Source: Gammaproteobacteria bacterium (GTDB taxonomy: Bacteria > Pseudomonadota > Gammaproteobacteria > Pseudomonadales > Azotimanducaceae). From it: a stretch of DNA of 64,000 nucleotides. The position numbers and the translations under genes were made by a program. The stretch is taken from the NCBI GenBank assembly GCA_026707945.1, contig JAPOVV010000105.1, positions 62,001 to 126,000 on the forward strand, written 5' to 3'. The notes under the pieces were generated by a model. The model searched no databases, was not told the DNA's origin, and saw only the letters and a list, made by a program, of their open reading frames with translations. Positions 12,171 to 62,268 of the stretch are shown here, piece by piece (the stretch's first letter is position 1; each line of letters starts with the position of its first letter).

Positions 12171-13223
12171 TCAAACCTGTAATGCCGTCGAAAAGTCCGG
12201 GAAACCATCCCATCGCCCAGGGTCGGTATGTCGCATGACTGCGACGGTTTTGATTGCTTCCGGATTTGCTAAACCGTGTGGTTTTTCGCCAGTAAGCACC
12301 CTAATGATGTTCTCGGCTTGCATGACAGCGGTTTCCCGAACAAAAACCTCTGACATAGCCGCAACGTGCGGCGTCACGTAGCAATTTGGCAAGCTAAGCA
12401 ATCGGCTACTAGAAGGCAGTGGCTCTACTTGCGTGACGTCAACTGCGGCGGCTTCAATTTCACCGCTTACGAGTGCGTCAGCTAGCGCTTCCTCGTCAAC
12501 AATTGGGCCACGAGCCGTATTCACAAGCAATGCCGTGGACTTCATACGACGGAATGCTTCCGCATCGAATAGATCGTTGGTTTCACTCGTCGCGGAGCAA
12601 TGGATGGTGATAAAGTCCGATTCTGATAGTAAGGTGTCAAAATCCACCAGCGAGACACCGAATAGATCACCGGCTAGCTGGTTCACATAGGGATCGTGCG
12701 CGAGAATTCGGCTCACGCCAAATCCGCGTATTCGAGTCGCGAATGCTCGTCCGATGTTCCCAAAACCAACAATCCCCATGGTGTGGCCAGAAAGTCTTCG
12801 CATCGTCGGGGTATACGTACCCATCGCACGCGGATTGTCGGCCCAATCACCCGCACGGGTTGAACTAATCGCGTCGTATAAGCGTCGCGTCAGCGATAAC
12901 AGCAACGACACCGCATGGTCTGCCACCTCGGTCGTATTAGAACCAGGTACGTTACATACCATGACGCCCAACTCGGTCGCCGCATCGATATCGATCGAAT
13001 CTACGCCAACACCAAAACGACTCAATACCTTCAGATTCGGGCAGGATTCCATTACGTATCGTGATGTCAGCGGCATGATGCCTACCTGAGCACCGTCTGC
13101 GTCGCCAATGAGTTCGATGAGCTCATCTTCATTGCTACACCGTCCTTCCTTGATTTCAATTCCCGCTTCTTCATACAGGGATTGCTGGGCGCCTTGTGCA
13201 CGTCCTTGCAACGCTACTTTCAT
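12171..13223 (-). CDS. D-isomer specific 2-hydroxyacid dehydrogenase (SerA-like)
   Basis: A 350-residue D-2-hydroxyacid dehydrogenase. NAD-binding GHTMGIVGFGNIGRAFATRI (~residue 145), the catalytic Arg region LLVNTARGPIVDEEAL, Glu in VDVTQVEPLP, and His in VTPHVAAMSE are intact. It has no C-terminal ACT domain, so it is more likely a catabolic or general hydroxyacid dehydrogenase than a regulated phosphoglycerate dehydrogenase. GAGGAA precedes the ATG at 13223. It stands alone, followed upstream by a decayed TauD gene in the same orientation, perhaps once an operon partner. Confidence 0.9.
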   Translation of the reverse strand: MKVALQGRAQGAQQSLYEEAGIEIKEGRCSNEDELIELIGDADGAQVGIMPLTSRYVMESCPNLKVLSRFGVGVDSIDIDAATELGVMVCNVPGSNTTEVADHAVSLLLSLTRRLYDAISSTRAGDWADNPRAMGTYTPTMRRLSGHTMGIVGFGNIGRAFATRIRGFGVSRILAHDPYVNQLAGDLFGVSLVDFDTLLSESDFITIHCSATSETNDLFDAEAFRRMKSTALLVNTARGPIVDEEALADALVSGEIEAAAVDVTQVEPLPSSSRLLSLPNCYVTPHVAAMSEVFVRETAVMQAENIIRVLTGEKPHGLANPEAIKTVAVMRHTDPGRWDGFPDFSTALQV

Positions 13224-13284
13224 TCCAATTCCTCATTTAAACGCGCGAATTCTGCACGTTGAGTAAGTGCAGCTGTTCAGACGT

Positions 13285-13900
13285 CTACATAGATGCCGAT
13301 TCTGTAAGTTCGTCACCTTTAACTCGTGTATGTCGCATGATGCGAGGTTGTCGTTAGTCGAACGGGCGAACGCTGTGAAGGATGCAGCGATAGTCCTAAC
13401 GCTTGAAGTCGCCTAGTTCCCATATGCTCTCGAATACAAGTGGCGGTTTACAGCCGAATTACGTGAGACATGACAACAAATCAATTGTCTCACGGTCAGG
13501 TAACCCACGCATTCGATATGCATCTCGTCCAATGTACAAAGCTGCTCGACCGGTTTCAGGATGAATTTTGACCAAAGATCGTAAAGGTGTATCGTCCGGC
13601 ATTAAGCCGTACTTAGACCCTATTGCGACGCGTCGGCTTAGACCCCGTGGGAGGAGTAAGGGTGTGGAACGCCGACAATGCTGCGACTTGATTGACAGCT
13701 TTCCGATAAGAATATCGAGTTCTCAGAATTGCTCGCTAATCCGATCTTTTGGCGAGTTGTGAAAACAGTTTATTCAGCCCGAGGACCGCTTACTCGAAAA
13801 ACGCGTCCTTCAATTCCGTGTAATAGAGGTCTGACAGATCTGCACGATCAACGCCTCCGACGCAGGCGGCAAGCGATTTTTTACATCAGCGTAACTTCAT
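13285..13900 (-). pseudogene. Decayed TauD/TfdA-family dioxygenase
   Basis: Translation of the minus strand gives two pieces of a TauD/TfdA oxygenase. The N-terminal piece (13900 to ~13740) reads GVDRADLSDLYYTELKDAFFE, a stop, then AVLGL, like the usual start of the fold. The C-terminal piece, in a different frame (~13670 to 13285), reads SLVKIHPETGRAALYIGRDA (family signature), then FESIWELGDFKR, stop, DYRCILHSVRPFD, stop, RQPRIMRHTRVKGD. The third iron ligand His and the Arg-containing end are recognisable, but TAA (13461-13459), TAG (13398-13396, where WDNRC is expected) and TAA (13356-13354) interrupt one unbroken frame. About 70 residues including the HxD motif are missing between the pieces. 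The preserved frame and nonsense substitutions point to recent loss. Confidence 0.85.
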
Positions 13901-14140
13901 ATCAATCACACATTAAAAAAAGCTCGGTGTCCACGATATACGATGCCAAATCTGGGGGCAGCAAAACGTCTCGTCTGAGGGCTATACGTGTGCTACCTGA
14001 CAGAAATTTCAATGTCAGAATATGACTCTCCAATACCTTCTTTCGATTTAAAATCTCATTACGCAGATTGGGCGTTGGCAATTCGCTTAATAAGGGATAG
14101 AGTCTCGCCCGCGAACCTAGGCATGAATGGGGAATAGTCT

Positions 14141-16561
14141 ATGGTTTTAACAACCCACAATCATCGCGATTGCTGCTTGACATCGAGTACGAGACGAGAA
14201 CGGCGCGTAGCGCAACAGACTCAGAAATTCAAGCGTTATTCAAGTCTCACATTGTTTAGCACGATTTTCGTGGCGTGTGCGCTCGTGCTATCTGGACCAG
14301 TGCTCGCACAAGAAGAAACTGCCTCCGAGCAGGTGATTGAAGAGATCATCGTCACCGCAACGAAACGGGCGGTATCTATTCAAGATGTACCGATCGCCGT
14401 ATCTGCGATCACAGGATACGACCTATACGCTCGTGGGGTCGAAGATCTTTACGGTTTAGCCGAAGTTGCGCCATCGCTAGCGGTATACAGTTCCAATAGT
14501 ACGACTAACGGCGGTACACTCCGTATCCGCGGTGTAGGCACCACAGGCAACAACCCTGGACTTGAAGCGGCGGTTGGCACTTTTATTGATGGCGTGTATC
14601 GATCGCGCGCGGGTCTAGCCTTCAATGATCTTCCGGATATTGCACGTGTCGAGATCTTGCGCGGTCCACAAGGAACACTATTCGGCAAGAACACGGTAAG
14701 CGGCGCGGTAAACATCATCACGAATGCACCCGAATTCGAAACGAGTTTAAGCGGTACGCTTGGTGTTGACGACAACAATGGTCACAATGCAAGCGTTGTA
14801 GGGAATTCCGCATTATCTGACGATCTAGCCGGAAGGGTATCGTTTTCGACGAGAACCCGAGATGGGTTTTACAACGATGTGAACTCCGATAGCATGTACG
14901 ATGGTCGTGATCGTTACAACCTTCGGGGACAAATGTTATGGCGTCAAAGCGACCAGCTTGACATACGCCTCATCGCAGACTATGCCGAACGCAATGAATC
15001 GTGCTGTCCCGCAGCTTTTTGGATTGCTGGTCCAACCAGCGCCGCCGTAGCCGCTCTCGGCGGCGACGTGACGGAATTTCGTGTCGGGGGTGACGCGAAT
15101 GTTGGAACCAACTACGAACCTTACGAAAACGTACAGGACGCAGGATTTTCTATCGATGCACTCTGGGAACGAGAAGACGGTTCTCAATTCCGATCAGTTA
15201 CGGCGATACGCGACTTCTCAGTTGCGCGCGGGCAGGACATCGATTTCACAAGTGCGGACATTCTCCATCCTCAAGATTCCGATGAGACGTTCCGCAATTT
15301 CTCGCAGGAGTTTCAACTTTTCGGCGAGACCGAAAACATGGATTGGCTCTTAGGCGCGTATCTGTACACAGAGGATCTCGAATCTGATGAATACATCGTG
15401 CTCTCAAATAACGGCGGCAATTACATAGGGATCCTATTCGGCAATCCTGCAGTTGCACCGCTTTTCATGGGCGACCCTTCGGGACGTGGCGTTCCTGGTC
15501 AAGGCTACGACGCGGTTTATTTCAGCGATACGAGAGGCTGGGCGATTTTCACACACGACGTGTGGCACGTAAATCCTTCTCTGGATCTAACGTTTGGTCT
15601 ACGCTACTCATGGGAGGAAAAAGACGCAGGTGCGATTATCAATGGCGCACCGTATGGAGAACTTATCAATGATCCATTTTGCGGACCTTTTGGCGCGATT
15701 TCAGCCTTCTTTTCGCTCTGCGATAACCTGAGCTGGAACAATGTTGAAGCGGAAAGTGCACTTACCGGCACTTTGAAAGCTGCGTTCGAAATTAATGACG
15801 ATGTTATGAGCTACGTCAGTATTGCGAGAGGTTACAAAGCAGGAGGATTCAATCTTGACCAAGAGGCCGTCGGCAACCGTGATGCGAACGGTAACTTTGT
15901 TGACCAAAGCCGATTTGACCCCGAAACGTCGGATTCATTAGAGTTAGGCGTCAAAGCGCGCATGTTAGGTGGTCGAATGACGGTCAACAGTGCGCTATTT
16001 CGAACCAGTTTCAGCGATTTCCAGCTCAACACATTTACCGGACTTGGGTTTACAGTGGGCAACGTCAAAGAGGTCACGTCATCGGGGATTGAAGTCGAGA
16101 CATCGTTACTGCTAGGGGGAGGTGTTTCTGCAAACTTCGGCGTGACCTATGCCAACGCTCGATATGGCAGAAATCTTGCTGTGAACAACTCACATATAGC
16201 GCGTAAAAGGTTGACGCAGTCGCCACCGTTACAAAGTAGTGCTGCACTCGTGGCAAATCGGGAGATCATGAACACAGGTTGGCGTTGGGTTGGAAATGTG
16301 AATTGGACCTTTATCGACAAAGTTAACACGGGATCGGACCTAGATCCTGAAAAAGTTCGCGACGCGTTCAATTTGATCAACGTCCAAACTGGCGTTGAAA
16401 GAGCCGATGGTCGTTACGAGATCATGCTAACCGGTCGCAATATCACGGACAAACGGGTTAACATGCTCGTATTCGACTCAGTCTTCCAAAGCGGCAGTTG
16501 GCATACGTTCGTTAATCCGCCACGTGTTATCGGACTGACGGTCAGAGCTAATTTGCTGTAG
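14141..16561 (+). CDS. TonB-dependent outer-membrane receptor
   Basis: An 806-residue TonB-dependent receptor. A signal peptide (SLTLFSTIFVACALVLSGPVLAQ, ~residues 36-58) is preceded by an unusually long ~35-residue N-terminal lead, so the start at the ATG 14141 is tentative, though GGGGA lies just upstream. Then the TonB box EEIIVTATKR, plug domain (DVPIAVSAIT, LRIRGVGTTG, RGPQGTLFGKNTVSGAVNII) and a 22-strand barrel ending in TVRANLL. The plug subtype is the one common in marine proteobacteria for small organic or terpenoid-like ligands, but the ligand is unknown. It is monocistronic and followed by a GC-rich hairpin. Confidence 0.93.
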   Translation: MVLTTHNHRDCCLTSSTRRERRVAQQTQKFKRYSSLTLFSTIFVACALVLSGPVLAQEETASEQVIEEIIVTATKRAVSIQDVPIAVSAITGYDLYARGVEDLYGLAEVAPSLAVYSSNSTTNGGTLRIRGVGTTGNNPGLEAAVGTFIDGVYRSRAGLAFNDLPDIARVEILRGPQGTLFGKNTVSGAVNIITNAPEFETSLSGTLGVDDNNGHNASVVGNSALSDDLAGRVSFSTRTRDGFYNDVNSDSMYDGRDRYNLRGQMLWRQSDQLDIRLIADYAERNESCCPAAFWIAGPTSAAVAALGGDVTEFRVGGDANVGTNYEPYENVQDAGFSIDALWEREDGSQFRSVTAIRDFSVARGQDIDFTSADILHPQDSDETFRNFSQEFQLFGETENMDWLLGAYLYTEDLESDEYIVLSNNGGNYIGILFGNPAVAPLFMGDPSGRGVPGQGYDAVYFSDTRGWAIFTHDVWHVNPSLDLTFGLRYSWEEKDAGAIINGAPYGELINDPFCGPFGAISAFFSLCDNLSWNNVEAESALTGTLKAAFEINDDVMSYVSIARGYKAGGFNLDQEAVGNRDANGNFVDQSRFDPETSDSLELGVKARMLGGRMTVNSALFRTSFSDFQLNTFTGLGFTVGNVKEVTSSGIEVETSLLLGGGVSANFGVTYANARYGRNLAVNNSHIARKRLTQSPPLQSSAALVANREIMNTGWRWVGNVNWTFIDKVNTGSDLDPEKVRDAFNLINVQTGVERADGRYEIMLTGRNITDKRVNMLVFDSVFQSGSWHTFVNPPRVIGLTVRANLL

Positions 16562-16575
16562 TGGATTTTTTGCGG

Positions 16576-16600
16576 CGACGCGCCCTTTCGGGGCGCGTCG
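16576..16600 (+). terminator. Rho-independent-like terminator hairpin after TonB receptor
   Basis: A perfect 10-bp GC-rich stem (CGACGCGCCC / GGGCGCGTCG) with a 5-base loop TTTCG starts 15 bases after the receptor stop. No long T-run follows on this strand, so it may slow or protect the transcript end rather than terminate strictly. Confidence 0.6.
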
Positions 16601-17045
16601 TCATTTGGTGAGCCGCTGGCGGATCGTGCCGGTGCGCCATTGTCGAATGAATCAACACCGACTGCGGTCGTGCGGACTTAGTTAAGCGGCGAAGCAGGAT
16701 ACAAACTAAATACGGTTTCGTGAATGGCGCGGTGAGTTTTCAGTGCTCGAAGAAATAAGTGGCTTGCGCGGAGCTTAAATAGAAAGACAGCTGGTCTATG
16801 TGACTTGGAACTTCAATCGCTTTTTCAGACTACAGCGAATGACGCTATGCCTAGCACGGAGAAACGCGAGGGAAGCGTTAGACTAGAACGAACTCCTCGG
16901 TGAATCGCCCAGTTCGGTTTTTTATTTTCTCGACTTGCGTCTCCAATGACTAAATATTGATCGAAGCGACAGATTTCACGTTCAAAATCAGCTACGGAAG
17001 GTTAGTTTTTCGCGACCCGCCAACGGGGTCGATAGTTAATGTGTC
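16601..17045. other. 445-base intergenic region between convergent genes
   Basis: I find no supported gene here on either strand; short open frames look random. One feature stands out: CGAACT (16889-16894) and AGTTCG (16911-16916) followed by the T-rich tract at 16918-16928, which resembles a Rho-independent terminator reading left to right. It is 330 bases after the receptor stop, so it may end read-through or an unannotated small transcript. Confidence 0.4.
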
Positions 17046-19220
17046 TCAAGAAACTGCAGCCTTCTCTGACATCACATATTTGTATAGACGCAATGCCAAT
17101 TCGTTGTTTTCTGCGTCGAGCCTCGCCAACGCTGCGGGAGTGATCAACAGCGTTTGACATGCACCTTCTGCATTTATCGACACCATCGATTCAGCCTCTT
17201 CAATTGCGCTCGCGGACTCTATTACGGAACCGGCACCGCATTCAAAGATCGTTGAACCGTCGTCTGCTAGAACAGATGCCTTCCCTGCGATCAGTAGCTG
17301 AAGACCTCTTGGTGAATCACCACGTGTCGAGATCGCCCCCTTGTCTTCGTAATCAACCGTCTCCGACCAATTGTTCAGGTCAACGACCAAGTTTTCGAAG
17401 TGTATCTGTCGATCTAAGTATTGAGTCAATTCTGAATTCGTACTTAGTCGCACTAGGTTTTTTAGATCCGGGTCGCTAGAGACATCGTTCTCGTAGTTAG
17501 TCAACAGAACATCCTCTACTTTTATAAGTGCGTCTTCTTCCGATTCAGCCCAGGTCACGTTTTTCATGAGCGCGGATGGGAAGTCTTCACGTATCTCTTG
17601 TGCAAGTCTGTCGGTCGTCGAACACAAAACGATTTGCACGTTCTGCGCGCTCGCGCGTTGAATGAAAGAACGGAAGCTATCTAACGCAGACAAATCAAAA
17701 CCAGAGACCTCTTCGAAATCAATCATGACGCACGATGGATTCACGTCGCTGTTCAGCGACTCTATGAGCCGTTTTGTTAGCGTGTGCGCACTCCCGAAAA
17801 AGACATAGCCCTGCAATTGATAGACCTGAGCGCGAGAGCCATAGACCTTCAATATCGTCTGATCGGGGATGGATCGAATCTTGTGGCTAGATCGATCGCG
17901 AAGCGTAGAGCTGCTTTTGATGAGCGGTACACTACTGAACCGAACGATTAAGAAGACCAAACTCAGAATCAATCCTAGGACGATCGCTTCGAGAAAGCCG
18001 ACAACCAAGATCGTAACGCAAATCAACAGCAGCATGCCGAATTCGGTCGGCTGAAGACGCTTTCGACTGTTGATTAGCCATTCAGTAATAAGTGGTACCG
18101 CGATGGAGATAAGGAATGCACTCGTGGCAGGTAGCGGGACCAACTTTAGGACGTCGGAACCGAGCAACACGACAGCGAGAAGCACGATCGCCATAACGAC
18201 GCTCGTGGCAGGTGTATTGGCGCGCAAGGCGATATTCTGGAGCGACGCAGACGCAACTGTCGCACCAGGGACTCCACCGCCGAGGCCAGAGAGCAGATTA
18301 GCAGTTCCGTGTAGTTTGAATTCTCTATCCCAATCAAACCCCGTTTTTGCGCCGAGTTCCACCTGCGAAAAATTGACCACGGTCAATATAAGCAGTATGA
18401 CGAACAGGACCATTGCATTCGACACCTGCCCAAAGACTGCACCCCAATCTACTGAACTTAAATCTTCGAACCCGTAGGTTGGCCATAAAGCGCCCGACCA
18501 ATCAATGCTGAAAAACAATCCTCCGGCGCGTGCTTCATCGATCGAAATGCCAAGCAACTTCAATCCGATATGGAAGAGCACGCAAAACGCTACAAACAAA
18601 GCAGGCAAAACCCAGAATAAACGCCAGACTTTAGCAACGACGATGAAGACCACGCCCAACAGGACGCTCAACGTCGCATTCCAAAAAGCCATCGGCTCGA
18701 TCAACTTTTCCCAAGAGCTTGGTCGCCAATCTAATCCTGCCAGGTTTAACGCCATCAACAGAACCAAAATGCCGGATCCTGCGAGTACGCCTGCGGATAT
18801 CGTGAACGGTATAAAACGGAAGAAACTCGCCGCTCGAACGTAACCGATTCCTAAGAAAAGCAATCCAGATAGAAAAGTACATCCAACAATCGAAATGACT
18901 GATGTCAGGTAAAGATCCCTACCGTCGAGTTCGAGCGACTGAGTAATAGCGATCATCACCAACGCAACCGGAATGGGTGTTGTTGCGACGGGAGCGGGGA
19001 ACTTACCTAAGATCGCGAGAAAAACGCACAGGATTGCTGTGCCGACGTAGAACATCGTCGTACCGTTGAGAACGAACGGCTCTAACTCACCTGTGAACAC
19101 GATGCTGGCTAGAGCAAACAGTGAAATCGCAAGCGTGAAGCCTTGGACTAAACCGACTTTAAGACCTGCGCCAAAGAGCCACTCTTTACCCAAAATCACG
19201 GTCTTTCTAGTGTCGCTCAC
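17046..19220 (-). CDS. SulP family anion transporter with STAS and cyclic-nucleotide-binding-like domains
   Basis: A 724-residue inner-membrane SulP protein. Residues ~15-430 contain 10 or more hydrophobic helices, including LGGGVPGATVASASLQN, the conserved SulP segment that normally reads GG-x-P-G-T. Residues ~445-560 are a STAS domain (VYQLQGYVFFGSAHTLTKRL, CVMIDFEEVSGFDLSALDSF). The last ~140 residues (LQLLIAGKASVLADDGSTIF, ECGAGSVIESASAI) look like a cyclic-nucleotide-binding/Crp-type beta-roll. SulP-STAS-cNMP fusions are known in bacteria; the ligand is unproven. GTG start at 19220. It may move sulfate, bicarbonate or another anion; the nearby TauE-like permease favours a sulfur-linked anion (inference). 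Confidence 0.9.
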   Translation of the reverse strand: MSDTRKTVILGKEWLFGAGLKVGLVQGFTLAISLFALASIVFTGELEPFVLNGTTMFYVGTAILCVFLAILGKFPAPVATTPIPVALVMIAITQSLELDGRDLYLTSVISIVGCTFLSGLLFLGIGYVRAASFFRFIPFTISAGVLAGSGILVLLMALNLAGLDWRPSSWEKLIEPMAFWNATLSVLLGVVFIVVAKVWRLFWVLPALFVAFCVLFHIGLKLLGISIDEARAGGLFFSIDWSGALWPTYGFEDLSSVDWGAVFGQVSNAMVLFVILLILTVVNFSQVELGAKTGFDWDREFKLHGTANLLSGLGGGVPGATVASASLQNIALRANTPATSVVMAIVLLAVVLLGSDVLKLVPLPATSAFLISIAVPLITEWLINSRKRLQPTEFGMLLLICVTILVVGFLEAIVLGLILSLVFLIVRFSSVPLIKSSSTLRDRSSHKIRSIPDQTILKVYGSRAQVYQLQGYVFFGSAHTLTKRLIESLNSDVNPSCVMIDFEEVSGFDLSALDSFRSFIQRASAQNVQIVLCSTTDRLAQEIREDFPSALMKNVTWAESEEDALIKVEDVLLTNYENDVSSDPDLKNLVRLSTNSELTQYLDRQIHFENLVVDLNNWSETVDYEDKGAISTRGDSPRGLQLLIAGKASVLADDGSTIFECGAGSVIESASAIEEAESMVSINAEGACQTLLITPAALARLDAENNELALRLYKYVMSEKAAVS

Positions 19221-19382
19221 GTACTTGATCCCACTAACAGTTCCGAGATACGCATAACACGGTCTCTCAAATCCAAGTGATTATCTACTCATCTCTGATC
19301 GCCCGCGCCTATACGCGAAGTCGCTGCCCACTGACCCGACGAGTAGGTCTATTGGTTTCCCGACCTCTCATACCCGCACTGT

Positions 19383-54173: not shown

Positions 54174-55679
54174 TCACGCATGAACGACGTCCATTTTTCG
54201 CCATTGACTCGGTCCCGTCTTGTGAACTGACTCACCGCTTGAATCTACTGCGACCGTCACAGGCATGTCTTTGACTTCGAACTCGTAGATCGCTTCCATC
54301 CCCAACTCTTCAAACGCAAGCAGTTTCGCATCGGTGATCGCTTTCGAGATCAAATAAGCCGCGCCGCCAACCGCAATAAGCGAAACGCCTCCATGTTTCT
54401 GAATCGCTTCGATGGTAGCGTCGCCTCGCTCCGCTTTGCCAATCATGCCAAGCAATCCGGTTTTCGACAGCATCGTATCGCTGAACTTATCCATGCGCGT
54501 CGCGGTCGTAGGACCTGCCGGGCCGATGACTTCATCCCTCACCGCATTGACGGGACCAACGTAGTAGATGAAACGATCGGTGAGGTCAATCGGCAGCGAT
54601 TCGTTCTTTTCTAGCAATTCGACCAACCTCTTATGAGCGGCGTCTCGACCCGTCAGCATTCTTCCAGACAGTAACAATGTTTCCCCGGCTCGCCATGTCC
54701 GAGCTTCATCTTTTGTGACGGTATCTAAGTCAACGTGCTTCGAATTCGCGCTAGCTGAATAGTCAATATCAGGCCATAGCGTCAAGTCCGGTGGTTCGAA
54801 CTCAGCGACACCAGAACCGTCAAGTTCGAATTGAATGTGTCTTGTTGCCGTGCAGTTGGGAATGATGGCAACAGGCTTATTCGCCGCATGCGTCGGATAT
54901 TCCGCAATCTTGACATCGAGTACTGTTGTCAGTCCGCCTAAACCCTGTGCACCAATTCCGAGTGCGTTAACCTTGTCGTAGAGCTCAAGTCGAAGCTCCT
55001 CTGCCCGACCTTTCGGACCACGCGCCTGCAGCTCTTGAATATCGATCGGAGCCATCATCGCTTCTTTTGCAAGCAACATCGCCTTTTCGGGTGTGCCACC
55101 AATACCGATACTCAGGATGCCTGGTGGACACCAACCAGCTCCCATCAACGGTACCTGACTCATCACGAAATCAACCACCGAGTCAGATGGATTTAGTACG
55201 GCAAACCTCGCTTTCGCTTCGCTACCACCACCTTTTGCAGCAACCTCAACATTGACCTTGTCTCCAGGCACCACGCGCATATGAATCACGGCTGGCGTGT
55301 TGTCGCCCGTATTCTGCCGCTGACCATCAGGGTCTATCAATACCGAACCGCGCAACGGATTGTTAGGGTCAAGAAACGCCTGACTTACTCCCGCGTTGAC
55401 AGCGTCTTCAATATCAACATCTTCGGTCCACTCAACCTTCATGCCAATCTCCAAGAACACGATCACTATTCCCGTATCCTGACAGATTGGTCGCTTGCCA
55501 AGCGCGCACATCCGCGAATTTACTAGTACCTGACGTAACGCGTCTTTTGCAGCCGGTGACTCTTCACGTTCCCATGCCGAGCGCATCGCGCTAATAAAAT
55601 CAGGCGGGTGGTAGTAAGAGATGTACTGTAGTGCGTCCGCAACGCTCTGTGTTAGGTCAGCTTGACTTATTCGTGACAT
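54174..55679 (-). CDS. Fumarate hydratase, class I
   Basis: A 501-residue oxygen-sensitive [4Fe-4S] fumarase of the single-chain class I type, converting fumarate to malate in the TCA cycle. Visible Fe-S cysteine regions: CQDTGIVIVFLEIGMKVEW, VPLMGAGWCPPGILSIGIGG and IIPNCTATRHIQFELDGSG. The C-terminal domain shows the GPAGPTTATRMDKFSDTML stretch and VGGAAYLISKAITDAKLLAF. Length is as expected. It sits before the alpha/beta-hydrolase operon in the opposite direction, sharing a 64-base divergent spacer. Confidence 0.95.
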   Translation of the reverse strand: MSRISQADLTQSVADALQYISYYHPPDFISAMRSAWEREESPAAKDALRQVLVNSRMCALGKRPICQDTGIVIVFLEIGMKVEWTEDVDIEDAVNAGVSQAFLDPNNPLRGSVLIDPDGQRQNTGDNTPAVIHMRVVPGDKVNVEVAAKGGGSEAKARFAVLNPSDSVVDFVMSQVPLMGAGWCPPGILSIGIGGTPEKAMLLAKEAMMAPIDIQELQARGPKGRAEELRLELYDKVNALGIGAQGLGGLTTVLDVKIAEYPTHAANKPVAIIPNCTATRHIQFELDGSGVAEFEPPDLTLWPDIDYSASANSKHVDLDTVTKDEARTWRAGETLLLSGRMLTGRDAAHKRLVELLEKNESLPIDLTDRFIYYVGPVNAVRDEVIGPAGPTTATRMDKFSDTMLSKTGLLGMIGKAERGDATIEAIQKHGGVSLIAVGGAAYLISKAITDAKLLAFEELGMEAIYEFEVKDMPVTVAVDSSGESVHKTGPSQWRKMDVVHA

Positions 55680-55743: not shown

Positions 55744-56556
55744 ATGGCTGAATCAGATCAGTTCGCACATGCGGAACTTGATTTTCCGACCGGCAAAATC
55801 TCGTATCTTCAAGGCGGTGATGGACCTTCATTAATTTGTCTGCACCACAGTTGGGGAAACCCCGGCGTACTAGAGCTGCATCAGAAACTTGCAGGCGACT
55901 TCACCGTGTTTGTACCGGACATGCCTGGTTGGGGTGGATCCGAGAGACCACTTTGGGCACGTACCGTTCGCGACATCGCGATCATCGTTTCACAGTTTGC
56001 TAATCAAGTAACGGAAACCTCATATCACCTTGTTGGTTTCGGTTTCGGCGGCTACGTCGCGGCAGAAATGGCGTCTATGAGTGAGACGACCATCGCCAGC
56101 TTAGCGCTAGTCGGCGCTGTCGGAATCCAGCCACGCGATGGCGAGATCATGGATCAGATGATGTATTCGCATCGCCAATACATCGAAGAGAGCTTCCGTG
56201 ATCGAGATAGTTATGTGAGTCATTTCGGCGAGGAACCACCGCAAGAAATGCGAGAACTCTGGGACCATTCGCGAGAGATGACTGCTCGCGTATCCTGGAA
56301 ACCCTACATGTTCAATCGGCGGCTCGGCGAACTGCTCAAAAACGTGACCGTAAGGACCGCACTGATCTGGGGCGAGCACGACAAGGTAGTACCCATCGAT
56401 GTTGCGGAACAGTACCGAGAAGCATTGAGAAACTCGCAGATCCATACAGTTAAGGACGCAGGGCACGTGGTAGAGATCGAAGCACCAGATGAAGTGCAAG
56501 CACTCGTCGCCACACATTGCGGTACGCAACTAGACCAAGTTTCGCACGGAGGTTAG
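55744..56556 (+). CDS. Alpha/beta-hydrolase fold protein lacking the nucleophile serine
   Basis: A 270-residue alpha/beta-hydrolase: GPSLICLHHSWGNPG (oxyanion hole), VFVPDMPGWGGSERP, the elbow HLVGFGFGGYVAAEMA, ALIWGEHDKVVPIDVAEQYR with the acid Asp, and VKDAGHVVEIEAPDEV with the catalytic His. The elbow should read G-x-S-x-G but reads G-F-G-F-G: the serine is Gly (codon GGT). It could be a cofactor-free oxygenase-, lyase- or isomerase-like member or an inactive partner. It is the first gene of an operon: the luciferase-like gene starts 2 bases after it, then the halogenase. Confidence 0.9.
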   Translation: MAESDQFAHAELDFPTGKISYLQGGDGPSLICLHHSWGNPGVLELHQKLAGDFTVFVPDMPGWGGSERPLWARTVRDIAIIVSQFANQVTETSYHLVGFGFGGYVAAEMASMSETTIASLALVGAVGIQPRDGEIMDQMMYSHRQYIEESFRDRDSYVSHFGEEPPQEMRELWDHSREMTARVSWKPYMFNRRLGELLKNVTVRTALIWGEHDKVVPIDVAEQYREALRNSQIHTVKDAGHVVEIEAPDEVQALVATHCGTQLDQVSHGG

Positions 56557-56558
56557 GC

Positions 56559-57899
56559 ATGTTCGTTGGTTACTTCACGGAGCGCCCGTATCAAGATCAG
56601 AGTTCTGGATACTTCGGTGCCACCGGGCGTAGCATCACTGATTTGACGATGTCGAACAGCAGCTACGATCCACAACTTGGTGCAGATCTCTACAACCGTT
56701 ACCTCGACGAGAAGATCTTCGCCGAAGAAATGGGGTTCGACGGTTTAATGCTGAACGAACATCATTCGACGCCGTTCTGCATGGGCGGAGTTATGAATCT
56801 CGAGGCGGCAATCCTCGCACGCATTACACAACGTGCGAAGATCGTACTCTTGGGCAACATCCTGCCCATCTGGGACGATCCGTTGTTTCTTGCAGAGGAA
56901 CTCGCCGAGATCGACATGATCAGCCGCGGTCGTCTAGTTACGGGTTGGGTACGAGGAACGGGTCGCGAGAGTGTTGCTCACAATGCCGCGGCGCCATATA
57001 ACTGGGAGCGGTTTCAGGAAGCGCATGACTTCATCATCAAGGCATGGACTCAGCCTGGACCCTATCGCTGGGAAGGCGACCATTACCACTTCCGCTATGT
57101 GAACCCTTGGGCACGACCCTATCAGGATCCGCATCCGCCTATCTGGATTCCTGGGGTCATGAGTCGTAACACCGTTGCATGGGCAGCCAAACATCGGTAT
57201 CCATACGTCATGCTAGCCACGGAGCTAGAGCCTACGCGAGAATCGTACGAGTACTACACGGAAGTCGCCAAAGAAGAAGGCTACGAAACCGGTACTCAAC
57301 ACCGAGGATATCTGTTCAAAGTTCACGTTGACGAGAACGAGAAACTCGCTGAGGAGGTCGGACGAAAGTTCGTGCAAGGCCCGAGCAATCCGTTCCTTGA
57401 AGGAAACCAAGGTACAGTGAGACCGTTCATTCAGAATTTGCCCGGACTAACACAGAGAAACAACCTGCTCCCTACGATGCGAAGTTTCGCTGCAGCAGCC
57501 TCCCGTGGTCGAGCCGAGCAACATAAACAAGAAGCGGCGAAAGCGGGTAAGAAAGTCGAACCACCAAAACCAGACAAGCCCCGAGATACCTATATCGATC
57601 AGACCGAGAAATACAGCATCATTTCAGGCACGCCGGACACGGTGATACCGCGAGTTCGCCATGTGCTTGAAACACTTCGACCAGGATCGATATTTTTCTG
57701 GGACGGCGACGGGGCGATGTCACATGACGACTCGATGCGCAGCCTTCGATTAATGGGGTCTGATGTCATCCCCGCTGTACGCGAAATGGCCAAAGAACTC
57801 GACCTGAAGGGTCCGTTTGAGGTCGATCCTCAAACTAATAAAACGGTCGAGAACGGCGACACCGCGACAGAATCCGAGGCATCTCAGGACGCGACCTAG
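56559..57899 (+). CDS. Luciferase-like (LLM class) flavin monooxygenase
   Basis: A 446-residue bacterial luciferase-family protein. MFVGYFTERPYQDQSSGYFG, the active-site MLNEHHSTPFCMGGVM, VLLGNILPIWDDPLFLAEEL, MISRGRLVTGWVRGTGRESV and PPIWIPGVMSRNTVAWAAK are typical. I chose ATG 56559, preceded by GGAGG; an upstream extension overlaps the hydrolase gene. Two low-complexity Lys/Glu/Pro linkers (KVEPPKPDKP region and the Glu/Asp-rich C-terminus) are unusual. FMNH2-dependent oxygenation of an organic substrate is expected; a flavin reductase is not encoded nearby. Confidence 0.9.
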   Translation: MFVGYFTERPYQDQSSGYFGATGRSITDLTMSNSSYDPQLGADLYNRYLDEKIFAEEMGFDGLMLNEHHSTPFCMGGVMNLEAAILARITQRAKIVLLGNILPIWDDPLFLAEELAEIDMISRGRLVTGWVRGTGRESVAHNAAAPYNWERFQEAHDFIIKAWTQPGPYRWEGDHYHFRYVNPWARPYQDPHPPIWIPGVMSRNTVAWAAKHRYPYVMLATELEPTRESYEYYTEVAKEEGYETGTQHRGYLFKVHVDENEKLAEEVGRKFVQGPSNPFLEGNQGTVRPFIQNLPGLTQRNNLLPTMRSFAAAASRGRAEQHKQEAAKAGKKVEPPKPDKPRDTYIDQTEKYSIISGTPDTVIPRVRHVLETLRPGSIFFWDGDGAMSHDDSMRSLRLMGSDVIPAVREMAKELDLKGPFEVDPQTNKTVENGDTATESEASQDAT

Positions 57900-57908
57900 A
57901 GGCATCTG

Positions 57909-59480
57909 ATGGACGGCATAGCCGTCATAGGAGGCGGTCCTGCGGGTAGTACGATCGCCGCGCTCCTCGCTCAACGCGGACTCTCAGTCCGACTGTACGA
58001 AGCGACACGCTTTCCTAGACCGCACATCGGCGAATCTCTTCTTCCCGCAACGATCGAAGCACTCGAACTGAGCGGTGCGGCTCAAAAAGTTCGTTCTGCT
58101 GGCTTTACGGTTAAAAACGGTGCGACGATGGCGTGGGGCGCAGATCACGAACTCTGGACGTGGAACTTTCGCGAAACCAACAAAGCACAACCACATTCTT
58201 ATCAAGTCAATCGGGAAGAGTTCGATCAGATTCTGCTACAACACGCCCGAGAGAGCGGGGTTCATGTGCACGAGGGCACAAAAGTTCAATGCGTGCGTTT
58301 TGACGGCGATGACGCGATCGGTATTGAAATCGACAGCGAACTTTATCCCGCCTCTTATGTGATTGATGCTACTGGACAACAGTCGCTCATCGCGAATCAA
58401 GAAGCCGCTAAATCTTGGGACGACGATTTCCGAAATCTCGCGGTATATCGCTATTACCGTGGCGGGGAGCACATGCCTGGCGACGCGGCCGGCAATATCC
58501 TCGTGGAGTCAGTCGCTGACGGGTGGCTGTGGAAGATTCCACTAAAAAATCATGTTTCGAGCGTTGGAGTAGTAACCGATCGAGACATAGCGATGAATTC
58601 GATCCGTGAAACGTCATTGGAAGATTGGTTCGACGAAGTGATCAGATTTTCCACATATACGTCGTCATTTCTTACCGATGCAGAAGCGATAGGCTCTTGC
58701 ACCGCTACGCGAGACTGGTCATACCAAGCGAACCAGTTCACAGGACCCCGCCACTGTCTAATCGGCGACGCGGCGTGTTTTATTGATCCCCTTTTCTCAA
58801 CCGGCGTACATCTCGCGATCTACAGTGCCACCATCGGTGCCGCGCTAGTTGCGACGACACTCAATGCGCCTAATTTAGCTTCGTTGGCAGCAGAAGCATT
58901 TGAACGCCAATATCGTCAACACTACGGCCATTTTCGTGAACTAGCGAGATTGTTTTATGGTTCGAATCGATCGATCGATTCTTATTTCTGGCAAACGCGC
59001 CAAATTACCGGTGAGAGTGCGTATTCGCCGCGCGCCGCATTCGTTCGAGCCGTATCCGGTCAAGCGAGTACTGGCTACGAACGTACGACGCTATCCCATG
59101 GCGTTCTGCCTCACAGCTTCACGAATGCGATAGATGAAGTTGAAAACAGCAGACATCAACGGCAATCTGCACTACGACAGCTCACCGAATCCACTGTTCT
59201 TGCTGTGTCTGGTTCCGTGTCGATTGAAAACGTGGCACTGTTTAGCGACGACGCTTTTCAGCCTGGGCTAGTCATACGACGTAAAGGCTTGGACGACATC
59301 CCTATTTCTCGTTTTGTCGCTGACGTAATAAGCGTCATCCAATCAGATGCCACTACCGCATCTGCAATCGCGTCTGCGTTGACTCATCGTGGCTGGACGT
59401 TGCCAGTCATACGAGCTTCTCTCAAACCGACGATCGAGTTGCTTTGTGTCGAAGGCATTTTCGAGTTTGATGCACTCTAG
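57909..59480 (+). CDS. Flavin-dependent halogenase-like enzyme
   Basis: A 523-residue FAD enzyme of the halogenase superfamily. The GxGxxG FAD motif AVIGGGPAGSTIAALLAQRG, FPRPHIGESLLP, and the conserved-lysine region GFTVKNGATMAWG are followed by the halogenase motif GWLWKIP (WxWxIP) and FIDPLFSTGVHLA (FxxPxxSxG). Residues ~440-523 form a wHTH-like segment (ISRFVADVISVIQSD, TASAIASALTHRG, TIELLCVEGIFEF). It probably chlorinates or brominates an electron-rich organic substrate as a non-tryptophan halogenase, or is a related flavin oxygenase. It starts 9 bases after the luciferase-like gene. No carrier protein or NRPS/PKS is nearby. Confidence 0.85.
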   Translation: MDGIAVIGGGPAGSTIAALLAQRGLSVRLYEATRFPRPHIGESLLPATIEALELSGAAQKVRSAGFTVKNGATMAWGADHELWTWNFRETNKAQPHSYQVNREEFDQILLQHARESGVHVHEGTKVQCVRFDGDDAIGIEIDSELYPASYVIDATGQQSLIANQEAAKSWDDDFRNLAVYRYYRGGEHMPGDAAGNILVESVADGWLWKIPLKNHVSSVGVVTDRDIAMNSIRETSLEDWFDEVIRFSTYTSSFLTDAEAIGSCTATRDWSYQANQFTGPRHCLIGDAACFIDPLFSTGVHLAIYSATIGAALVATTLNAPNLASLAAEAFERQYRQHYGHFRELARLFYGSNRSIDSYFWQTRQITGESAYSPRAAFVRAVSGQASTGYERTTLSHGVLPHSFTNAIDEVENSRHQRQSALRQLTESTVLAVSGSVSIENVALFSDDAFQPGLVIRRKGLDDIPISRFVADVISVIQSDATTASAIASALTHRGWTLPVIRASLKPTIELLCVEGIFEFDAL

Positions 59481-59683: not shown

Positions 59684-59923
59684 ATGGCCGCCGCGTTGAA
59701 GGTCGGGAAGTGGGGAAGTAGCCTCGCTATTCGTATCCCGAAGGTAGTTGCTGAACAATATGGAATCTCTGAAGGTTCATCATTGAATCTGGAATTACAG
59801 CCTCGTCAATTCGTGATGTCGTTGAGGGAGTATGATCTAGACGAATTGGTAAGTCAGATCACACCTGAAAATCGACACCCGGAAACTGATTGGGGTGTAC
59901 CTCAAGGCCGCGAAGAGTGGTAG
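59684..59923 (+). CDS. mazE: MazE-type AbrB-fold antitoxin
   Basis: A 79-residue antitoxin. The swapped-hairpin AbrB/MazE DNA-binding domain is KVGKWGSSLAIRIPKVVAEQ followed by YGISEGSSLNLELQ; the C-terminal ~30 residues are acidic and flexible (VSQITPENRHPETDWGVPQG), as in the toxin-neutralising tail. It overlaps mazF by 7 bases, the usual coupled arrangement. An AT-rich dyad upstream is its likely operator. Confidence 0.93.
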   Translation: MAAALKVGKWGSSLAIRIPKVVAEQYGISEGSSLNLELQPRQFVMSLREYDLDELVSQITPENRHPETDWGVPQGREEW

Positions 59924-60288
59924 CAGACGAGTATGTACCCGATCGAGGGGACATCGTATGGTTGGATTTCACACCTCAAGCAGGACATGAACAGGCGGGC
60001 CGTAGACCTGCCTTTGTCATCAGCACGCGAGAATTTAACGAACGCAGTAGATTAGGGATTTTTTGCCCTATAACCTCGACATCAAAAGGATTCCCTTTTG
60101 AGGTAGTACTCCCACCGACAGGCAGCGTTTCCGGTTCCGTACTTATCGATCACATCAAGAGCTTAGATTGGCAGGCTCGGCATGTTAGATTCGCCACCAC
60201 AGCTAAGCCTCATACACTCACTGAGGTATTTGGTAAACTCGGGGCTCTGATATTTCCGACCCCATCGTTACGAGACGCGGTTACGTAG
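59917..60288 (+). CDS. mazF: MazF-type endoribonuclease toxin
   Basis: A 123-residue MazF/PemK toxin: DRGDIVWLDFTPQAGHEQAG, RRPAFVIS (catalytic Arg region), GIFCPITSTSKGFPFEVVLP (Thr and flanking residues of the active site) and SGSVLIDHIKSLDWQARH, as in E. coli MazF and ChpB. It is an mRNA-cutting ribonuclease held by MazE. I choose the GTG at 59917 because it overlaps mazE's end and starts at the family position. The toxin appears intact. Confidence 0.94.
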   Translation: MVADEYVPDRGDIVWLDFTPQAGHEQAGRRPAFVISTREFNERSRLGIFCPITSTSKGFPFEVVLPPTGSVSGSVLIDHIKSLDWQARHVRFATTAKPHTLTEVFGKLGALIFPTPSLRDAVT

Positions 60289-61659: not shown

Positions 61660-62268
61660 GTGAAGATTTACCACGTAAAAGGCACCCGTTCGATACGGGT
61701 TATCTGGCTCTGCCACGAACTTAATCTACCGATCGATATCGAGACCATACCGACCTTCGACGCCGCATTCAAGGCTTCGCCCGAATGGCGAGCGAAATCG
61801 CCGACCGGCAAGGTGCCAGTCCTCGAGGACGGTGAAATATCGATGTATGAGTCTGGCGCAATGGTCGAGTACATACTCCAGCGATACGGTCCCGGCGATT
61901 TGGTCCCGACTGATCCGAGTGATCTGGCGTTGTACTACCAGTGGTGCTGGTTCGCGGAGGCAACGTTCGCGCGTCCGCTGGGTGACATCATCCACAATAC
62001 CGTAATGAAACCGCCCGAGGAACGGATTGCGGCCGTCGTGCCAGACGCAACGCAGCGTGCTACGTTGTGTTTAGATGGAATTGAGCGATGCGTCGAGAGT
62101 CGACAGTATCTACTCGGCGATACGTTTACAGCAGCCGACATCATGATGGGATATTCGATGATGCTCGCTGAACGAACAGGCGTTCTTACGTCTGCCCACC
62201 CCAACTCTCAGCGATATTTCCATTTACTCGAGGGCCGGGAAGGCTTTAAAGCTGCTCGTGAGGCCTGA
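61660..62268 (+). CDS. Glutathione S-transferase
   Basis: A 202-residue GST. Thioredoxin-like N-domain: MKIYHVKGTRSIRVIWLCHE, SPTGKVPVLEDGEISMYESG (cis-Pro VPVLE and the glutathione-binding ES), then AMVEYILQRYG; helical C-domain: QYLLGDTFTAADIMMGYSM with the structural N-cap/aspartate. GTG start at 61660. It overlaps the end of the GPH symporter gene by 23 bases. Divergent from acyl-CoA dehydrogenase; a detoxification role or use of glutathione in a degradation step is possible. Confidence 0.92.
   Translation: MKIYHVKGTRSIRVIWLCHELNLPIDIETIPTFDAAFKASPEWRAKSPTGKVPVLEDGEISMYESGAMVEYILQRYGPGDLVPTDPSDLALYYQWCWFAEATFARPLGDIIHNTVMKPPEERIAAVVPDATQRATLCLDGIERCVESRQYLLGDTFTAADIMMGYSMMLAERTGVLTSAHPNSQRYFHLLEGREGFKAAREA

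Follow-up and report, generated by a model that had tools for sequence, protein, structure and literature searches.

A conserved three-gene cassette of a serine-less alpha/beta-hydrolase, a luciferase-like monooxygenase and a halogenase-type flavoenzyme

Organization of the cassette

The stretch of DNA analysed here (the window) covers 64,000 nucleotides, positions 62,001 to 126,000 of contig JAPOVV010000105.1 in the gammaproteobacterial assembly GCA_026707945.1, from a marine-type bacterium; the contig has 275,848 bases and the genome 3.8 Mb in 117 contigs. On its plus strand we found three adjacent genes. Gene A (55744-56556) encodes a nucleophile-less protein of the alpha/beta-hydrolase fold (270 aa), gene B (56559-57899, counted from its ATG) a luciferase-like monooxygenase (LLM, 446 aa) and gene C (57909-59480) a flavin-dependent halogenase-type enzyme (523 aa). 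The trio is a real, conserved three-enzyme cassette that crosses phyla, as it is present in Pseudomonadota, Chloroflexota and Entotheonella. Its enzymes are of known kinds but their combination is new, and no account of such a trio was found in the openly licensed papers searched.

The gaps between A and B and between B and C are 2 and 9 bases, respectively; in this respect, the open reading frames (ORFs) and the DNA agree with an earlier reading made from the sequence only, which had described a packed three-gene operon. The family assignments were clear for all three products: A matched PF00561 with 69.9 bits, above the Pfam cut-off, B matched PF00296 (Bac_luciferase) with 112.3 bits versus a cut-off of 27.9, and C matched PF04820 (Trp_halogenase) with 144.3 bits versus a cut-off of 21. 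A GGAGG sequence within the end of A (56548-56552, plus strand) is the likely ribosome-binding site of B. The mechanically defined ORF of B begins upstream, at the TTG in position 56517; several relatives have the ATG only.

Conservation and co-occurrence of the three genes

In a set of 58 related genomes, the window's own included, strong matches to A, B and C were observed in the same 10 genomes: 8 from among the 18 of its genus, plus 2 from elsewhere in the family. The thresholds were E<=8.9e-136 for C, at least 80% identity for B and E<=2.3e-86 for A, each giving 10 genomes; weaker homologues of A and B were seen in other genomes among the 58. In genome G021, assembled in short contigs, one contig carries B and C together with an A fragment ahead of B, and another contig has a longer match to A.

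A profile of ten B proteins found at least 563 relatives among named genomes, and the best 80 loci were kept. Of these, 46 carried A, B and C in the fetched stretch, 15 carried A and B, 18 had B without A or C, and one had B and C with a 42-residue fragment of A at the contig start. Judging by the record titles, all 80 loci came from metagenome-assembled genomes (MAGs), mostly of Gammaproteobacteria/Pseudomonadales and Chloroflexi/Dehalococcoidia (one of them SAR202), with two of Candidatus Entotheonella and one without assignment (L117). Several of the isolate codes presumably designate sponge metagenomes. One record, titled Klebsiella pneumoniae MAG (locus L096), holds a trio with divergent sequences and looks like a mislabelled or mixed bin. 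The usual order was A, B, C on one strand; A was on the opposite strand in two Entotheonella loci and C in loci L102, L146 and L154.

For 15 of the 33 loci without C, the search was extended to the genome, and 14 of the 15 genomes turned out to have C at E<=1.6e-188; in the remaining one (L127) the contig stops 84 bases past B. In two of those genomes, C lay downstream of that B at a distance of about 6 kb, while in G438 and G431 it belonged to another A-B-C trio.

We also observed a strong association of B and C in 245 genomes of the class of G438 (the Chloroflexi bin that is the source of locus L128), taken as Dehalococcoidia from the titles of near-identical loci. With C counted at E<=1e-100 and B at E<=1e-180 (33 genomes each, the best 5 or 7 candidates being scored per genome), 31 genomes had both genes, 2 had C only, 2 had B only and 210 had neither (Fisher p 1.4e-34, ancestry uncorrected). 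The best B and the best C were at most 5 kb apart in 26 of the 31 genomes, and in 24 of these C was co-oriented with B and downstream of it; in the other 5 they were on different contigs. In Pseudomonadota at large, C was nearly absent at the thresholds used. When the best 3-4 candidates were scored per genome, matches at E<=1e-100 were found in the window's own genome and, within 398 genomes, in one more (G596, 385 bits, one stop), and a scan of 369 genomes of the class at E<=1e-80 gave the own genome and 5 weaker matches.

Pairwise distances over 43 loci (a Mantel comparison, loci L088, L095 and L106 dropped) had correlations of 0.89 for A-B, 0.76 for A-C and 0.65 for B-C, which none of 2000 permutations reached, though such correlations could arise from shared ancestry alone. 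A chance neighbourhood of A, B and C is rejected by the co-occurrence and the gene order. The search for the three-gene order in relatives, which the sequence-only reading had proposed as one of its checks, found the trio kept as a unit in several phyla.

The catalytic domain of gene C

The halogenase motifs and the conserved lysine pointed out earlier proved to be invariant: all 50 distinct rows of the alignment had the candidate catalytic lysine at codon 69 (58113-58115), the WxWxIP motif (WLWKIP, 58524-58541) and the FxDPxFSxG motif (FIDPLFSTG, 58779-58805), all on the plus strand. The GxGxxG motif for FAD had the form GGGPxG in 47 of the 50 rows, with G023, L080 and L081 gapped there. Lys69 aligned with a lysine of CndH, CmlS, FasV, ChlB4 and PltA. 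The available text of PMC10377541 gives K74, D325 and F328 as essential residues of RadH; D293 and F296 of C would correspond to D325 and F328 by alignment offset, and Lys69 to K74 by profile range.

The modelled structure of C (13 of 44 non-redundant locus rows were dropped from the AlphaFold alignment) had the flavin-dependent halogenase fold and was nearest to FasV, CndH and RadH. Among solved structures, the top three profile matches were CndH, CmlS and FasV, all named halogenases in their PDB entries. Enzymes of the FasV, CndH and CmlS type (8zop, 3e1t, 3i3l) share with C the fold, the lysine and both motifs at 26-37% identity, and the CmlS structure aligns over residues 1-523 of C. The score against the CmlS equivalog NF033113, however, was 285 bits, below the curated cut-off of 900. 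Unlike these enzymes, C is usually accompanied by an LLM enzyme and an alpha/beta-hydrolase.

Gene families near the cassette were scanned in 12 genes between 49.1 and 63.6 kb of the window, A, B and C included; two of the 12 were without any match. Families of nonribosomal peptide synthetases and polyketide synthases (NRPS/PKS), carrier proteins and flavin reductases had no match among these 12 genes, so that the absence of such genes, remarked on in the sequence-only reading, was borne out over this range.

Another relative of C is the peptidyl-tryptophan dihydroxylase QhpG (7ctq), in which, as in C, the catalytic domain is followed by a C-terminal winged helix; the part of PMC7876137 at hand also describes a Trp-x-Trp in the channel of QhpG. 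Identity to C was 18% and the Foldseek rank was 42; QhpG was absent from the 50 rows shown by VIA-align. Against the QhpG equivalog NF049967 (curated cut-off 240 bits), the window's C scored 203.5 bits, while three C relatives and one second-copy C scored 193.7-216.5 bits; the profile aligned to the end of C from locus L110. In contrast with the setting of QhpG, neither a radical S-adenosylmethionine gene nor QhpC was among the 12 scanned genes.

The C-terminal domain of gene C

Approximately residues 430-520 of C (59196-59468, plus strand) make up a winged-helix-like domain, PqqD-like by profile. In the model, strands in residues 431-466 (two long, two short) are followed by helices in 468-514 and a short strand in 518-520, with a pLDDT of 84-94 per block. 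This is the strands-then-three-helices order of PqqD and of the recognition element (RRE) domains of ribosomally synthesized and post-translationally modified peptides (RiPPs); it is close to the element order that defines RREs in the available part of PMC12710340. Compared with a 20-row PqqD alignment, the domain reached an hhalign probability of 93.5, versus 2.9 for the best of 60 column shuffles and at most 0.77 in six comparisons with the alignments A1, A3 and A5.

On the other hand, the window's C had no match to Pfam PqqD (cut-off 23.4 bits). Six of 31 C members matched it at E<=1, with a best E of 0.0024, and the single score seen was 16.9 bits. No RiPP precursor next to the trio was seen among the 12 largest small-ORF families from the 46 trio loci and the window, none of which was common to gammaproteobacterial and other loci.

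Gene A, a hydrolase fold with glycine in place of serine

The nucleophile elbow of the window's A reads GFGFGG instead of GxSxG, and codon 100 (56041-56043, plus strand), the position of the expected catalytic serine, is GGT for glycine. Glycine was present in the window and in 55 of the 65 rows of the A alignment, the other 10 rows being of the serine type. His-His-Ser is found at residues 34-36 (55843-55851, plus strand), in the position of the oxyanion loop; 53 of the 55 glycine-type rows had HHS or HRS here, versus none of the 10 serine-type rows. The triad partners were kept: the window has D213 and H241, and of the 65 rows 59 have the Asp and 64 the His.

The AlphaFold2 model of A had a pLDDT of 90.4 and a pTM of 0.90 (24 of 55 non-redundant locus rows dropped from its alignment). 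Its fold, that of alpha/beta-hydrolases and C-C hydrolases, was near CarC, DxnB2, 4opm and 6i8w. The meta-cleavage-product C-C hydrolases CarC, DxnB2, BphD, HsaD and MhpC were among the closest folds or profile matches. A resembles them in the retained Asp and His and differs in the glycine that replaces the nucleophilic serine and in the HHS loop; an extradiol dioxygenase was not among the 12 genes scanned. Gene A provides a natural C-C-hydrolase-like fold without its serine; a literature search on serine-less alpha/beta-hydrolases brought up nothing useful. The description of A as a nucleophile-less, Ser-to-Gly hydrolase stands as far as the substitution is concerned, but has to be qualified by the C-C-hydrolase kinship, the retained His and Asp, and the serine-type A at 4 loci that hold B and C.

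In a quick tree of A (trait column kept in, rows L095 and L106 dropped), the Ser/Gly difference required one change. Loss of the serine as a consequence of C was rejected: among the 49 A rows whose locus contains C, 4 were of the serine type, and 10 of the 55 glycine-type rows had no C in the fetched locus.

Gene B, the most constrained part

Residues 66-69 of B, Asn-Glu-His-His (56754-56765, plus strand), aligned with the EHH of an alkanal monooxygenase alpha chain in the PDB, and NEHH was present in 91 of 92 rows, duplicates counted. Between gammaproteobacterial and Chloroflexota trio loci (11 versus 28), the median identity was 74% for B compared to 45% for A and 43% for C; B is thus the most constrained part of the cassette.

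In a quick tree of B, the trio loci were scattered: they occurred among the gammaproteobacterial rows, in Entotheonella and in several clades of Chloroflexota. Two nested clades, by contrast, took up 17 of the 18 B-alone loci. Close Chloroflexota paralogues of B without A or C (loci L131-L135, L137 and L138) made a clade of their own, and several of them share neighbours (clusters c5, c14 and c20). Pairs of an LLM gene and an alpha/beta-hydrolase gene without C were seen in genomes G018 and G035, with A of the serine type. The B-like proteins of such pairs and of y4wF-like LLM genes had identities to B of 46% or less; a gene annotated y4wF is a distant homologue of B (30.6%).

B belongs to the luciferase family, as do the FMN monooxygenases (FMNOs) of SAR202, and records of Dehalococcoidia and SAR202 contribute many of the homologues closest to B. 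The SAR202 enzymes, whose expansion is also described in PMC6946804, were proposed to be type II Baeyer-Villiger enzymes (PMC5395668; available sections in both cases). The word halogenase occurs 0 times in the main text of either paper, and those sections do not mention linkage with C and a serine-less hydrolase.

Proposed function and alternative explanations

The families, motifs, gene order, co-occurrence and folds described above rest on sequences and models. From these we infer the halogenation, the three reactions and their order, the reductase, and the passage of one substrate through all three enzymes. We propose, with a probability of roughly 0.45, that A, B and C work together as a conserved, free-standing module for oxidative processing, with C as the halogenase, B as the oxygenase and A acting without an acyl-enzyme. 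C would take FADH2 from an unlinked flavin reductase, react with oxygen and halide and, by means of Lys69, halogenate an electron-rich aromatic or enolisable substrate, which may be held between the catalytic domain and the C-terminal winged helix. B, an FMNH2 monooxygenase of the luciferase branch, would then put oxygen next to a carbonyl in a Baeyer-Villiger-like manner. A, with its His-Asp pair and the remodelled His-His-Ser loop as a general-base catalyst, would act on the oxygenated product by tautomerisation, elimination or cleavage, with no acyl-enzyme formed. The families of both B and C require reduced flavin. The one Flavin_Reduct match of the genome (PF01613, 132.6 bits) is on another contig, and since 13 of 14 control genomes match PF01613 as well, it has no special link to the cassette. 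Of the sequence-only proposal of a free-standing oxidation/halogenation system unlike known pathways, the conserved unit and the lack of a described trio held up, while the halogenation itself is predicted from sequence.

Weighing against this proposal, the QhpG profile spans the full length of the C protein of L110, though below the cut-off, and C is up to several kb from A-B in some genomes. The former point favours an alternative in which C is a hydroxylase and the two flavin monooxygenases of the cassette, together with a ring- or ester-opening partner, break down an imported refractory substrate, as proposed for the expanded SAR202 FMNOs. In the available part of PMC5395668, the predicted activity of these FMNOs is that of type II Baeyer-Villiger enzymes, the resulting lactones being opened spontaneously or by an esterase. 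Of the 33 genomes with C in the 245-genome set, 13 had a second match to C (one match partial), and in 4 of the 5 such loci read (L225-L229) the neighbours of the second copy encode two peptide/nickel-type permeases and a solute-binding protein of the SBP_bac_5 type, the families being tested on L227 only. An SBP_bac_5 gene also adjoins C in Entotheonella locus L150, and in G007 the genes after the trio encode Rieske proteins and a TonB receptor. Importer neighbours, seen in relatives and not in the window, hint at uptake and breakdown over the making of antibiotics. We nevertheless consider a hydroxylase less likely than a halogenase, given the invariance of Lys69, WxWxIP and FxDPxFSxG and the named halogenases as best structure matches. 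Independent action of the three proteins, adjacent by chance or shared inheritance only, is made very improbable by the gene order, which is A-B-C in both Pseudomonadota and Chloroflexota and retains B-C in Entotheonella, and by the all-or-none strong matches in 10 of 58 relatives, the variable distance of C notwithstanding.

Luciferase-like and FAD monooxygenases can dehalogenate, and the module might detoxify or consume halogenated natural products, B or C stripping the halogen oxidatively and A completing the cleavage. It would suit such a role that sponge Chloroflexi were proposed to break down aromatic compounds (PMC6306507, available part), but A, B and C all stayed below the curated cut-offs of the dehalogenase models, with weak matches of A to two haloalkane dehalogenase models, and we regard this explanation as improbable. 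A tethered or protein substrate is conceivable in view of the PqqD-like winged helix: C may modify a peptide- or carrier-bound substrate recognised by that domain, much as QhpG modifies QhpC. The hhalign result and the near-RRE order of the modelled elements speak for this; the missing Pfam PqqD match and the lack of a cross-group family among the 12 largest small-ORF families speak against it, and the alignment of CmlS extends to residue 523 of C, so that this halogenase branch may have such a domain in general. Modification of a bound substrate is, in our judgement, quite improbable.

Returning to the halogenating module, a more specific version would be cryptic halogenation in catabolism shared by SAR202-type Chloroflexota, Gammaproteobacteria and Entotheonella: C would halogenate an enolisable or phenolic carbon, B would oxygenate beside it and the serine-less A would split the C-C bond. 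We hold this version to be speculative and improbable. If true, halogenation would be a part of the catabolism of refractory organics and not of antibiotic synthesis. The cassette as such could tie these bacteria into the marine cycling of organohalogens. A PCR study connected some tryptophan halogenases of Aplysina sponges with Chloroflexi by correlation (PMC6644159, available part). SAR202 and relatives have many FMNOs with roles only predicted (PMC5395668, PMC6946804, available sections); B is one such enzyme with two recurring partners, one of halogenase type, in three phyla, and the trio amounts to a defined set of three proteins for expression and assay.

Genes adjacent to the cassette

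A fumarase-type gene of class I, whose product contains both domains in a single chain (54174-55679, minus strand), is divergent from A at a distance of 64 bases. It was present in 13 of 19 gammaproteobacterial loci and stays beside A-B-C in G007 and G003 while the other flanks differ. Because its cluster is limited to gammaproteobacterial loci, the link probably reflects shared inheritance. No transporter or reductase conserved by the trio across all lineages was seen in the neighbour clusters; among the clusters printed, MOSC, ABC-permease-like and other neighbours were lineage-specific.

In locus L065 of G007 (12612-19222; likewise in G003 by protein clusters), C is followed by genes for two Rieske proteins and a TonB-dependent receptor, which could mean substrate uptake and oxidation. 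The Chloroflexota trio loci L140 and L143 have a flanking gene of CoA-transferase family III (tested in L140) as well as ORFs that look by eye like enoyl-CoA hydratase and acyl-CoA dehydrogenase. Just after C in the window (59684-60288, plus strand), a short ORF, MazE-like as read by eye, precedes a MazF-like toxin gene (PF02452, 84.4 bits); a homologue lies close to C in L060 and L061 as well, but not in L062 or L063.

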